Origin: Methanoregula sp.
GTDB lineage: Archaea; Halobacteriota; Methanomicrobia; Methanomicrobiales; Methanospirillaceae
Direction of reading: 5' to 3'
NCBI RefSeq assembly: GCF_002835825.1
Contig: NZ_PIZH01000034.1
Coordinates: 1-10,334, forward strand
DNA length: 10,334 nt
In this document: positions 5,404 to 8,964 of the stretch, piece by piece
How positions within the stretch are numbered: position 1 is the first letter of the stretch
Layout of the letters: each line of letters begins with the position of its first letter
The notes under the pieces: model-generated
What the model was told of the DNA's origin: nothing
What the model saw: the letters and a program-made list of their open reading frames with translations, nothing else
The model's database searches: none
Program-made: the position numbers and the translations under genes

Positions 5404-6027
5404 TTATTCTATTTGAACCGGCCGGTCAGGGGACGGATTCTGCCGTATAAACGCCTCAGCACGTTCATAATCTGCCGGCGTATTGACATTCAGGGCAAGA
5501 CGGGGATCGTTTACAAGAAGACGATACTCGTCCTGTTCTTCACCGGCACGATTCCCGCGGATGATATTAATACCCACCGGGCTCGCTTCTGTGCCCCCGA
5601 TCTTTTCGCGGTAGGGCATACTCTCGCGGCAGCTGGTCACCGCTGTTGCGGGCACCCAGGTTGAAAGCGCGTCTTTTCCGGATTTTTGGTAGGCTTGCCT
5701 GATGGATAGCACCACGGATTCCGTGATGCAGGGGATGTCTGCAACCGATACGAAAAGGGGGCCGTCCTCGTCAAGCGATCGTACGGCCTGGACCATATCA
5801 TCGATATAGCCACGTCCATCCGTACGGCAGAAGACAATACCATTTGCCCGGCACCAGTTTGCCGTCATGGGAGTCTTCGGGGAGCCGGCAACAACCGGTT
5901 CACACCCGGCGTTCTGAAAGGCGTGAATGACATATGCGATCATGGGCCGGCCACAGATGAGGGCAAGGGGTTTTTCCCCGCTACTGAGCCGGCTGCCGGA
6001 ACCTCCGGCCATAATCAGTGCACGCAT
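5404..6027 (-). CDS. cobY: CobY, GTP:adenosylcobinamide-phosphate guanylyltransferase
   Basis: CobY attaches GMP to adenosylcobinamide phosphate to give AdoCbi-GDP, the activated precursor of the nucleotide loop in archaeal cobamide synthesis; it replaces bacterial CobU. The 207 residues begin MRALIMAGGSGSRL, the NTP-transferase nucleotide-binding loop, followed by EKPLALICGRPMIAYVI. TDGRGYIDDM (near 69-78) and FVSVADIPCI (near 92-101, metal-binding Asp) fit the MobA-like fold of CobY. Near the C-terminus is NVNTPADYERAE, usual for this fold. The start overlaps the end of the upstream cobD-like gene by 13 bp, with GAGG about 10 nt before the ATG, so the two are translationally coupled. MobA or a general sugar nucleotidyltransferase is less likely given the partner. 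Confidence 0.88.
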   Translation of the reverse strand: MRALIMAGGSGSRLSSGEKPLALICGRPMIAYVIHAFQNAGCEPVVAGSPKTPMTANWCRANGIVFCRTDGRGYIDDMVQAVRSLDEDGPLFVSVADIPCITESVVLSIRQAYQKSGKDALSTWVPATAVTSCRESMPYREKIGGTEASPVGINIIRGNRAGEEQDEYRLLVNDPRLALNVNTPADYERAEAFIRQNPSPDRPVQIE

Positions 6028-7022
6028 GCTCTAAATGCCTCGATGAGGGCCCGGTTTTCTTCACGGGACATGACCGCGATTCGGATGCAGGTTGGCAGGC
6101 CAAAGGACGTACAGTCACGGACAAGAACGCCATGATCCGCAAGCATCTCACAGAGCGGGGATGCATTCTGTCCGCAATCGAACAGGATGTAGTTTGCGCG
6201 GGTGGGGGTACACTTCATGCCGAGCGCTTCCAGCTCTGCTACCAGGAATGCCCGCTCATGTTCAATTGCTGCCCTGGACGCAGCCAATTCATCAAGATGA
6301 AGGAGCGCTTCCATAGCATAGGCCTCGGCATAGGCATTCACGCACCAGGGCGAGCGGGCTGTCTCGATCTTCCGGATGAGATCCGGATCGCCAAAACCGT
6401 AACCAAACCTGATACCCGGGACGGCAAAGCACTTGGTGATCGAGCGCAGGACAAAGAGAGAGGCGTCGCGGATATCGACTACGCTCTGCTGCGGATCGGA
6501 GAGCTCGATGAATGCCTCATCGCAGAAAAGGATGGAACCAGTATCTTTTGCAGCGGAGAGTTTTATCCTGACTTCATCCTTTGAGACCAGCTGCCCTGTG
6601 GGATTATTGGGATTGCAGAGGAACTGCACGGATGCGCTGCGGGGATCTGTGACGCGGGAAGCACCGGCAAGTGCGGCGGAGAGTTCGTATTCGCCGAATG
6701 TCGGGGATTCTGCAAAGAATGTGCGGGGGATTTCCGGGTCGCGGTAGCGTACTGAACAGAATGCCCGGAGCACTTCGATGGACCCATTTCCCACGCATAT
6801 CTCTTCAGGATTGCGGTGGAAGACCTTCCCTATCCGGTCCTTGAGCGAAGAATAGGAGTCATCCGGATAATATTTCAGGCACTCAGGGTCCAGGTGCCAC
6901 GCGAACCGGGGGACGCTGGGATTAACGCTCGCGCTGAAATCCAGCACGGATTTACGGGTTTTTTCCTGCTGCCGCTTCCCGATTCCCCCATGTACGACCC
7001 GTTCCGGAAAGCCGGCAACCAA
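6015..7022 (-). CDS. cobD: CobD/CobC-like PLP enzyme, L-threonine-O-3-phosphate decarboxylase
   Basis: The reaction expected is decarboxylation of threonine phosphate to (R)-1-amino-2-propanol phosphate, the linker of cobamides. The 335-residue protein is a fold-type I aminotransferase-like enzyme: VVHGG near residues 9-13 (HGG is typical of CobD/CobC N-termini), LDFSASVNPSVP at 27-38, NPNNPTG at 137-143, DEAF at 168-171, and the PLP lysine in SITKCFAVPGIRFGY (Lys197), with Arg314 in CIRIAV. The start is a TTG at 7022, chosen because GGAG lies 8 nt before it and the HGG motif follows at once; no ATG or GTG fits. It overlaps cobY by 13 bp, which argues for CobD over histidinol-phosphate aminotransferase HisC, its closest relative. 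Confidence 0.85.
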   Translation of the reverse strand: MVAGFPERVVHGGIGKRQQEKTRKSVLDFSASVNPSVPRFAWHLDPECLKYYPDDSYSSLKDRIGKVFHRNPEEICVGNGSIEVLRAFCSVRYRDPEIPRTFFAESPTFGEYELSAALAGASRVTDPRSASVQFLCNPNNPTGQLVSKDEVRIKLSAAKDTGSILFCDEAFIELSDPQQSVVDIRDASLFVLRSITKCFAVPGIRFGYGFGDPDLIRKIETARSPWCVNAYAEAYAMEALLHLDELAASRAAIEHERAFLVAELEALGMKCTPTRANYILFDCGQNASPLCEMLADHGVLVRDCTSFGLPTCIRIAVMSREENRALIEAFRACVH

Positions 7023-7094: not shown

Positions 7095-7114
7095 GAGAAA
7101 AAAGTATTTATAGG
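7095..7114 (+). promoter_or_regulatory. BRE and TATA box of the cdrS-ftsZ operon
   Basis: A purine run AGAAAAAAG (BRE-like) is followed by TATTTATAGG (7105-7114), a near-consensus archaeal core promoter. The expected start is about 7132-7138, leaving a leader of about 80-87 nt before cdrS. It is back to back with the cobD promoter. Confidence 0.65.
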
Positions 7115-7144
7115 CAAACGTGTTAGTTAGAATCATCTGGTTAA

Positions 7145-7205
7145 GTCAGACACAAGGGTTCTCTTTGTCTGACATATGAACGACAAATGCCAGACATATG
7201 TCAGA
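7145..7205. repeat. Phased direct and inverted repeats in the cdrS leader (candidate operator or RNA switch)
   Basis: GACATATG occurs at 7171-7178 and 7193-7200 with a variant GACAAATG exactly between at 7182-7189, so three units step by 11 bp; GACACAAG at 7149 is also in phase, 22 bp upstream. Overlaid on these are a perfect 8-bp inverted repeat, GTCAGACA (7145-7152) with TGTCTGAC (7166-7173), and a perfect 11-bp inverted repeat, TCTGACATATG (7168-7178) with CATATGTCAGA (7195-7205). GACATATGTC (7193-7202) is itself palindromic. Spacing by one helical turn suits dimers of a ribbon-helix-helix protein, and CdrS is encoded just downstream. The inverted repeats share 7168-7173, so as RNA they would be alternative hairpins. 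Confidence 0.7.
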
Positions 7206-7218
7206 AATGTGAGATACA

Positions 7219-7398
7219 ATGATGCAAAGAATCACGCTCCGGTTGCCAGAACAGCAGATCAACCTGCTCCAGCAGATGGTGGATTCGGGAGAATACCCGA
7301 ATGTATCAGAAGCGGTCCGGGCAGCGGTCCGTGAACTTGTTGAAAAACGAGCGAGTCGTGTCCTTAAGGAAAGTGACCAGGTTTCATTCAAGGTTTGA
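7219..7398 (+). CDS. cdrS: CdrS-like ribbon-helix-helix transcriptional regulator of cell division
   Basis: Translated by eye, this 59-residue protein begins [17 protein letters not shown] and continues with [20 protein letters not shown], the strand-helix-helix pattern of MetJ/Arc ribbon-helix-helix proteins: RITLRLP is the DNA-contacting strand, NVSEAVR the turn and second helix. It closely resembles haloarchaeal CdrS, a short regulator encoded immediately before ftsZ2 that controls division genes. The second ATG (7222) could be the start instead; a GTGA-type ribosome site at 7209-7212 is weak. The stop is 13 bp before the ftsZ ATG, so the two are one operon. The repeats in its own leader suggest autoregulation. 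The CdrS name rests on sequence pattern and synteny. Confidence 0.88.
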
Positions 7399-7411: not shown

Positions 7412-8584
7412 ATGCAGAGTATAATCAACGACGCTTTAAAAAATGCCGAGCTGGAAAAAGAGATCAACAAGCCCGGCAGTGCAAATGCAATGGAAGATGA
7501 CTTTGTCGGCCAGCCGAGGATCGTTATTATCGGCTGCGGTGGTGCAGGAAACAACACCGTGAACCGTATTCACCACATGGGTGTTTCCGGTGCTGAGACC
7601 ATCGCCATCAACACCGATAAGCAGCACCTGGACATGATCCAGGCTGACAAGCGCATCCTCATCGGCAAGTCCCTGACCAAAGGTCTCGGCGCCGGTGGTT
7701 ACCCCGATGTCGGTAAGAGGGCAGCCGAGATGGCACGCCCGACACTCGAGGCAATCCTCGAATCCGCAGACCTCGTCTTCATCACAGCAGGTATGGGTGG
7801 AGGTACCGGTACAGGCTCTGCACCCGTTGTCGCACAGATTGCAAAGGAACAGGGCGCAATCGTCGTTGGGATGGTCAGCTACCCGTTCCAGGTCGAGAAG
7901 GCGCGCCTGATCCGTGCAGAAGAGGGTCTCGAGTCACTCGCCTCCGCAGCAGACTCTGTCATCGTCCTCGACAACAACCGCCTCAAGAACTTCGTCCCGA
8001 ACCTGCCGCTCGGCCAGGCCTTCTCGGTCATGGACCAGCTCATTGGTGAGACCGTCAAGGGTATCTCCGAGACCATCACCGAGCCGTCGCTCATCAACAT
8101 CGACTACGCTGATGTCCGCGCCATCATGTCCAAGGGCGGCGTTGCCGTCATGCTCGTCGGGGAGAGCAAGCAGCAGAACAAGGCAGAGAGCGTTGTCCGC
8201 GAGTGCCTCTCCAACCCGATGCTCGACATCGACTACCGCGGAGCAACCGGCAGCCTGATCCACATCACCGGCGGCACGGACCTTACCCTGCAGGATGCAG
8301 AGGAAGTCGCAACCTCGCTTACGTACGAGCTCGACCCCCACGCAGATGTCATCTGGGGTGCCCGAGTCCGGCCCGACATGGAAGGCAAGATCCGCGTCCT
8401 CGCGATCATGACCGGCGTCAAGAGCGCACAGATCCTCGGCACCCGCCAGTCCTACAAGACCGTTGTCCAGGAGATCGACGCCAAGCGCGCCAACCCCCGC
8501 GCAGTCGAAATGCCCGTACAGCGCAGGACCAGCGGCGGCAGAGACCAGCCCAGCGGTGGCGGCGTCCTTGAATGGGTCGGTTAA
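7412..8584 (+). CDS. ftsZ: FtsZ, cell-division GTPase
   Basis: FtsZ is the tubulin-like GTPase that polymerises into the division ring at midcell. The 390-residue product has an N-terminal extension of about 35 residues and then [17 protein letters not shown] (37-53), NTDKQHL at 67-73, the tubulin signature [10 protein letters not shown] at 129-138, DNNRL at 187-191, and the T7 synergy loop NIDYADV at 229-235 (Asn229, Asp231, Asp234 in the catalytic positions). After about residue 355 comes a short polar tail ending GGGVLEWVG, a candidate partner-binding peptide. The frame runs upstream to 7301, overlapping cdrS, but ATG 7412 has GAGAGGGT 7 nt before it and gives the normal N-terminus. Linkage to CdrS suggests the archaeal FtsZ2-type locus, though the paralogue cannot be settled here. 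Codons are strongly C-ending, consistent with high expression. Confidence 0.97.
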
Positions 8585-8712: not shown

Positions 8713-8964
8713 ATGGCATCACGACGCTACATCACAAACGAGAACCCGGTCCGGGAAGTGAACCTGCAGAGCGCAAAACTCTTTGAAAGCGACCTGGAAT
8801 TCCTCCGGGCACGGGGGATACCGGTGCGTACAGCGCTGCGCGAAGCTCTTCACGAGCACGTGAAGAAGATCCGGTCACGGGGACTCCCGGCCATGACCCC
8901 TGAACAGCGGGCAGCATTCATCCTGAATGGTAAAGTAGTGGCGGGAGATGTGCCCCGGGAATAA
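8713..8964 (+). CDS. Small protein with ribbon-helix-helix-like pattern, function unknown
   Basis: I recognise no named family. The 83-residue basic protein has VREVNLQSAK (about 13-22), which could be a beta strand, then LFESDLEFLRARG and IPVRTALREALHEHVKKI (about 36-53), two amphipathic helices joined by a Gly turn. That is the order expected of an Arc/MetJ-type DNA-binding dimer, but the basic strand motif is less clear than in CdrS. The C-terminal part (LPAMTPEQRAAFILNGKVV) looks like another short helix. ATG 8713 has a GGAGA ribosome site 8 nt upstream. It follows ftsZ after 128 bp on the same strand. The coding call is supported by the ribosome site, promoter and codon use; the fold is a suggestion only. 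Confidence 0.7.
   Translation: MASRRYITNENPVREVNLQSAKLFESDLEFLRARGIPVRTALREALHEHVKKIRSRGLPAMTPEQRAAFILNGKVVAGDVPRE

Follow-up and report, generated by a model that had tools for sequence, protein, structure and literature searches.

A conserved, helically phased GTC-N-GAC array in the cdrS-ftsZ leader of Methanoregula as a candidate operator for CdrS

What is a row of evenly spaced repeats doing in the short leader of an archaeal cell division operon? The question is raised by a 10,334-nucleotide stretch of DNA from Methanoregula sp. (the whole of it is termed the window below), in which the gene of CdrS, a small ribbon-helix-helix (RHH) protein, precedes ftsZ. How the amount of FtsZ is set in archaea is poorly known. 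The reading to which we give a probability of about three in four is that CdrS has a six-unit operator in this leader, and that its dimers cooperate on one face of the DNA to block transcription, i.e., negative autoregulation. The features on which the argument turns are as follows.

7105..7112, plus strand: TATA-like box TATTTATA of the cdrS-ftsZ promoter, from sequence, with a similarly placed box in relatives
7145..7151, plus strand: unit 1, GTCAGAC, by sequence and phase
7156..7162, plus strand: unit 2, GGGTTCT, degenerate (in phase, though diverged in sequence)
7167..7173, plus strand: unit 3, GTCTGAC, by sequence and phase
7178..7184, plus strand: unit 4, GAACGAC, by sequence and phase
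7189..7195, plus strand: unit 5, GCCAGAC, by sequence and phase
7200..7206, plus strand: unit 6, GTCAGAA, by sequence and phase
7168..7205, plus strand: inverted repeat TCTGACATATG/CATATGTCAGA, a possible RNA hairpin whose 5' arm overlaps the pairing 7145-7152/7166-7173
7219..7398, plus strand: cdrS, 59-aa RHH protein (RHH_1), the proposed binder
7412..8584, plus strand: ftsZ, the second gene of the operon (TIGR00065, 415.5 bits)

The array and its conservation

The initial annotation of the window pointed to three octamers, GACATATG at 7171, GACAAATG at 7182 and GACATATG at 7193, and to a fourth GACA at 7149; the positions, the 11-bp steps and the common phase of the fourth copy are all borne out by the sequence. 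When the leader is shuffled with its dinucleotides preserved, the trio does not appear once in 2000 trials. The best score for 11-bp-phased GTCNGAC between 7135 and 7218 is 30, while 5000 shuffles reach 25 at most; on the two strands of the window there are 20142 other 84-base stretches, and the highest value among them is 24. The number of GACANATG copies in the window is by itself only weakly unusual (5 against a mean of 1.44, with 2 of 200 shuffles reaching 5); the case for the array is built on phase and conservation. Nor could GACANATG be upheld as the repeat unit, since the part that stays constant across relatives is GTC-N-GAC; GACATATG is simply the Methanoregula form of unit plus spacer. 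The leader thus contains, between 7145 and 7206, six GTC-N-GAC units phased at 11 bp, unit 2 being degenerate.

A transcription start near 7135 was predicted, which is plausible in view of TATTTATA at 7105-7112. The predicted leader is then about 84 bases long and the array makes up most of it, running from about 10 bases past the predicted start to 12 bases short of the cdrS start codon (7219), entirely downstream of the TATA-like box. At the predicted start itself lies ATCTGG (window 7135-7140), which is not in the 11-bp phase. In 123 of 139 array leaders, duplicate records being counted twice, an RTCTG sequence precedes unit 1 by no more than 18 bases, and it may be a start-site element.

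The proposal had been made dependent on conservation in close relatives, and the alignment of cdrS upstream regions in related Methanomicrobiales shows the repeats conserved and their phase kept. The named relatives (48 loci) comprised Methanoregula, Methanolinea, Methanofollis, other Methanomicrobiales, Methanoregulaceae and Methanospirillaceae. From 161 leaders, many of them duplicate records of one locus that were collapsed to a single representative, 45 representatives less than 80% identical were retained; six loci without cdrS were excluded from the leader comparison, a paralog leader of genome G017 (L056) was set aside before the 161 were counted, and 14 haloarchaeal leaders and two of family f9 (L128, L130) were kept outside the clustering. 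The strand residues of these two f9 loci differ from the R-T-R described below, and both were outside the array scoring. Sites that match GTCNGAC at 5 or more of its 6 positions number 191 in the 45 leaders, compared with a mean of 22.3 and a maximum of 37 in 300 shuffles. The sites form 64 pairs at a distance of 11 bp, 83 at 22, 59 at 33 and 32 at 44, and no other distance up to 45 has more than 3 pairs; shuffled leaders give at most one 11-bp pair, and the region 200-450 bases ahead of the start codon gives none. All six units could be placed in 43 of the 45 leaders (L122, with a single clear pair, and L129, with a weak one, were omitted), and the array begins 69 to 77 bases ahead of the start codon in 42 of these and 84 bases ahead in the remaining one. 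Position frequencies for units 1 and 3-6, unit 2 being left out, are G87 T73 C93 W94 G93 A85 C80 A77 percent. The array also precedes cdrS in two further families of the phylum (L112 and L113, which belong to one genus, and L121).

Near-palindromic subsites at a fixed helical spacing, as in RHH operators of the Arc/MetJ/CopG/NikR type, are thus found, and they lie over the predicted start region of the regulator's own gene. The units are, however, not independent of each other: unit 4 resembles the reversed unit 5 (0.708 against 0.630; 0 of 5000 shuffles). Such mirroring is more than independent units would need and counts against a simple single-unit reading; it fits pairs of units forming 18-bp dyads, comparable to the haloarchaeal ftsZ1 pair, as well as it fits a hairpin.

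CdrS, its haloarchaeal targets and the joint loss of gene and array

The product of cdrS matches PF01402 (RHH_1) with an E-value of 1.3e-07 and 31.7 bits, above the cut-off of 20.5. It consists of a single RHH domain of about 60 aa, and its gene lies directly upstream of an ftsZ that is taken, from its position after cdrS, as FtsZ2-type. The best NCBIfam match is NF058555 (TransRegCdrSHalo, a name that points to haloarchaea), at 71.2 bits under an equivalog cut-off of 100. The predicted monomer (mean pLDDT 77.9, 18 sequences) has an extended N-terminus followed by two helices, and its top Foldseek matches are RHH antitoxins at E-values of 0.12 and above, which, given the middling confidence of the model, is consistent with an RHH fold and no more; a sequence search of the PDB likewise returned RHH antitoxins as weak matches (5ceg the best of them, with an E-value of 1.6e-4). 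RelB and other RHH proteins contact bases through strand positions 3, 5 and 7 (PMC2812701, PMC5569661). In CdrS the residues at positions 3, 5 and 7, counted from the second Met, are R, T and R; they are invariant among the listed CdrS proteins that come with an array, and the same strand is common to methanogens and inferred haloarchaea. The G017 paralog (L056) has an R-T-S strand, and its leader contains other inverted repeats (TGATGTATCAT type) and no GTCNGAC array; the different third strand residue is a possible specificity switch. Downstream of ftsZ the window encodes an 83-aa ORF without Pfam match (8713-8964) and a DUF7121 protein (PF23435; 9389-10249).

The CdrS regulator was studied by ChIP-seq in Haloferax, where 18 sites with a symmetric motif were reported, among them ftsZ1 (-50) and dacZ (-47), with psmB and panA also on the list of targets (PMC8406309). 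The corresponding promoters were searched for the methanogen unit in genomes whose haloarchaeal status is inferred. With ftsZ1 defined as the second-best FtsZ match (44-47% identity) in ten such genomes, two of them congeneric (G125, G150), a GTCNGAC pair at 11 bp with at least 10 of 12 matches was found in all ten regions, with at least 11 in nine and with a perfect match in four. The pair lies at -63 to -68 from the ATG, immediately upstream of a BRE/TATA-like GGGGAAAGGTAATTAA or a variant of it. At dacZ a pair with at least 10 of 12 matches was found in 7 of 22 regions (shuffles: mean 0.23, maximum 2), at least 11 in four and a perfect one in none. Three more dacZ loci (L259, L260, L264) have pairs with 11 of 12 matches in a scan that used a different window and in which some strands were wrong; they are absent from the 7 of 22 because of the chosen start. 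No pair was found in the 22 regions of a proteasome set (PF00227, in which the subunit was not identified and some starts were misplaced). The perfect dyad GTCNGAC-N4-GTCNGAC occurs at 72 places in 22 inferred haloarchaeal genomes, 1 to 6 in each, against none for the reversed control; among the 22 places looked at more closely, 7 precede an ftsZ1-type start and 13 lie inside some open frame, and none of the 72 is at dacZ. From these shared promoters we infer that the unit of the methanogen leader is the same as that at the Haloferax CdrS targets ftsZ1 and dacZ.

The dependence of the array on cdrS can be followed in three genomes of one genus from another family of the phylum (G121, G126 and G069). 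The ftsZ of G121 is 95% identical to those of both G126 and G069, and between G121 and G126 cdrS is 99% and the array 92% identical. In G069 cdrS is a broken remnant (66% identity, 3 gaps), lying between a retained promoter and an intact ftsZ (L352), so that the gene appears dispensable in this lineage. The G069 array is 69% identical and all eight of its phased 7-mers are changed, while the promoter remains at 92% and ftsZ at 95%. Within the array, decay was similar at unit bases (31 of 42 kept) and outside the units (27 of 42), as it would be in a stretch free to decay, and the units were not singled out. A broader comparison examined 17 out of 30 loci, all 17 of ftsZ2 type and with or without cdrS: phased units are present at all three loci with cdrS, and of the 14 without it 11 have no phased pair, two (of one genus) have one pair and the last is the G069 relic. 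As the array is decayed where cdrS is broken and mostly absent where cdrS is missing, its retention seems to depend on cdrS. G069 may thus serve as a natural loss case.

It is on the ftsZ1 and dacZ pairs, the joint decay with cdrS and the invariant R-T-R strand that CdrS is proposed as the binder. That CdrS has an operator at its own operon, as the initial annotation proposed, is well supported by the conserved array, by the recurrence of its unit at haloarchaeal ChIP targets and by the common decay of array and gene; that CdrS binds the array in methanogens, that it does so cooperatively and that it represses are steps we infer.

Mode of action and alternative explanations

In the proposed mechanism one CdrS dimer would read each near-palindromic GTCNGAC unit with its beta-ribbon, neighbouring dimers would be placed one helical turn (11 bp) apart on the same DNA face, and rising CdrS would fill the array cooperatively. 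The filled array would stop RNA polymerase from starting or from moving on, and its occupancy would set the level of CdrS and FtsZ. With most of the predicted leader taken up by the array, transcription should be blocked once CdrS is bound. Only about 10 bases separate the predicted start from the array, so that a roadblock and the shutting of polymerase out of the start region both fit, the two being equally compatible with the position of the array.

One may ask whether CdrS on the array mainly activates or organises the promoter instead of repressing it. Most Haloferax CdrS sites are reported to precede the start by 41 to 110 bases, and repression of cdrS lowers ftsZ1, so that CdrS is more activator-like there (PMC8406309). 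The whole methanogen array, however, comes after the TATA-like box and lies over the predicted leader; a protein bound to an archaeal promoter or to the DNA downstream of it is described as usually inhibitory (PMC8406309), and archaeal-virus RHH factors are described as occluding their own start sites and spreading along the DNA (PMC5569661). We regard an activating role as unlikely.

A second question is whether the array is occupied by a regulator other than CdrS, some RHH protein or a CdrL-like factor. In Halobacterium the RHH protein CdrL binds the cdrS-ftsZ2 promoter, which is reported as its single binding region (PMC7439475), and the cdrS-ftsZ2 promoter itself is missing from the Haloferax CdrS ChIP list given in PMC8406309. 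Yet CdrL is reported absent outside Halobacteria (PMC7439475), and the haloarchaeal leader carries a different element. Fourteen inferred haloarchaeal cdrS leaders (L114-L120, L123-L127, L131, L141) contain GTAAGAC-N4-GTCTTAC or a variant, not the GTCNGAC array, whereas GTCNGAC pairs are found at CdrS ChIP targets. Of 20 inferred haloarchaeal genomes, 14 have a single copy of the exact element, located 81-117 bases ahead of the first matched cdrS codon, and the other 6 have no exact match; a CdrL-like double-zinc-ribbon frame was seen upstream of cdrS in 11 of 14 stretches. Place and uniqueness make GTAAGAC-N4-GTCTTAC a candidate CdrL operator. The window differs on both counts: the long frame upstream of cdrS (6015-7022) is on the minus strand, and the leader units are GTCNGAC. 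The decay of the array where cdrS decays also speaks against a foreign regulator, which we consider improbable. For the absence of the Haloferax cdrS-ftsZ2 promoter from the CdrS list, and for the activator-like behaviour of CdrS there, we offer the hypothesis that CdrL took over the leader in haloarchaea.

Finally, the leader could act as RNA, with the mutually exclusive hairpins 7145-7152/7166-7173 and 7168-7178/7195-7205 switching cdrS translation. In an alignment of 31 of the 32 Methanoregula-group leaders (L006 omitted) the outer stem is 97.9% paired, and 4 of its cells, which belong to 2 pairs, carry changes on both sides; none of 500 shuffles has as many such cells, and 7 of 500 have as many such pairs. 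The number of its pair types, on the other hand, does not exceed what shuffles give (129 of 500), the central pair of the unit is disrupted in 5 of the 31 leaders, and the competing stem is without covariation. Template switching within inverted repeats could also yield compensating changes. The window leader folds with a z-score of -2.17 (5 of 200 shuffles as good), RNAalifold gives -9.5 kcal/mol for the Methanoregula-group leaders, and Rfam at gathering score matches only a tRNA in the window, with no leader or riboswitch. Spacers 3 and 5 match each other's complement more often than expected (0.610 against 0.529, P 0.0026, 43 leaders), but they are equally alike in direct comparison (0.628 against 0.538, P 0.0008, 43 divergent leaders), and repeated AAAT spacers separate the units in some leaders, e.g., L101 and L134. 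The mirroring of units 4 and 5, a 38-base perfect palindrome spanning units 3 to 6 in the G042 leader (L033:466-503) and the decay in G069, which would suit an RNA element serving cdrS only, all agree with the RNA reading. As the sole explanation an RNA switch was rejected, since the inferred haloarchaeal ftsZ1 pair lies upstream of the TATA-like box, should not be transcribed and does not fit RNA; we hold this reading to be very unlikely, and a secondary RNA role of the leader possible.

Other sites and comparison with known systems

If CdrS acts through GTCNGAC, does it act on other division genes as well? The regulon envisaged by the initial annotation was found only in part: GTCNGAC pairs are present at inferred haloarchaeal ftsZ1, but no broad set was found in methanogens, where none of nine Methanomicrobiales ftsZ1 upstream regions has two sites at 11 bp, a test limited by the fact that these regions look like coding DNA. 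Within the scope of these comparisons a broad methanogen regulon was also rejected on the one-mismatch dyads, which in ten genomes of the group, forward strand, are rarer than the reversed control (22 against 48). The genome scan for 11-bp tandems, with which that idea was to be checked, recovered cdrS-ftsZ but no wide set of division genes. Across 60 genomes of the order the two-unit pattern matched in 62 rows and its control gave 8 counts; across 120 genomes, 37 of which had a match, the three-unit pattern matched in 47 rows and its control again gave 8 counts. Of 30 three-unit loci inspected, 19 are at cdrS-ftsZ and 11 elsewhere. The three-unit pattern was found in none of ten genomes of the window's own genus because units 4 to 6 deviate there.

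The sole other conserved array found in the Methanoregula group with the patterns used precedes a small gene of unknown function. In the window's genome (contig C788, L140:581-609) it consists of GTCTGAC, GTATGAC and GTCATAC in 11-bp phase, and a TATA-like box of the small gene follows some 75 bases further downstream. Arrays of this type precede the small conserved gene, which has no Pfam match, in 8 of 10 genomes (not in G015 and G017 with these patterns), and 7 of these 8 stretches also encode a YGR210-like GTPase; homologs that are named among the best 120 of 552 are called hypothetical protein. A different 11-bp direct array (ATCGGACATTT and variants, 3-4 copies) was observed in other Methanomicrobiales (L336:1501-1540, L333:1501-1529, L330:1501-1529), at L336 right after a 452-aa ORF.

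A GTCNGAC code for CdrS would span methanogens and haloarchaea and predict sites of CdrS action. More tentatively, and with rather less confidence than an even chance, it may be supposed that the six-site array is the ancestral state in the phylum and acted as an FtsZ2 dosage sensor, on which a growing CdrS filament gave a threshold shut-off, and that haloarchaea rewired it, with CdrL at the cdrS leader on a changed unit and CdrS at activator sites of ftsZ1 and dacZ. Such CdrS/CdrL rewiring between lineages is a prediction testable in cultured archaea.

Autoregulation by RHH proteins is well known; among the matches listed from the open-access PMC literature no title concerned a CdrS operator in methanogens. 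The closest system is CdrS of Haloferax volcanii and Halobacterium salinarum, with which the methanogens share the cdrS-ftsZ2 gene order and, through the inferred haloarchaeal genomes, the R-T-R strand and the GTCNGAC pairs at 11 bp at ftsZ1 and dacZ; the haloarchaeal pairs, however, lie upstream of the TATA box in an activator position, whereas the six-unit methanogen array is downstream, in the leader of cdrS itself. The putative CdrL operator is similarly one element at the cdrS-ftsZ2 promoter with 11-bp spacing and an inner GAC-N4-GTC, but differs in its outer bases (GTAAGAC/GTCTTAC), and CdrL is a reportedly halophile-specific protein. AmrZ of Pseudomonas is described as an RHH dimer of dimers that represses its own gene at one site and activates at another (PMC3325190), though on two half sites with a 5-bp linker and not on a six-unit array. 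At relO the dimers of the RHH protein RelB line up along one face of the DNA on spaced repeats (PMC2812701), and SvtR and F55, RHH repressors of archaeal viruses, occlude their own start sites (PMC5569661); these proteins serve toxin-antitoxin or viral genes, and their operators are of other sequences and sizes.
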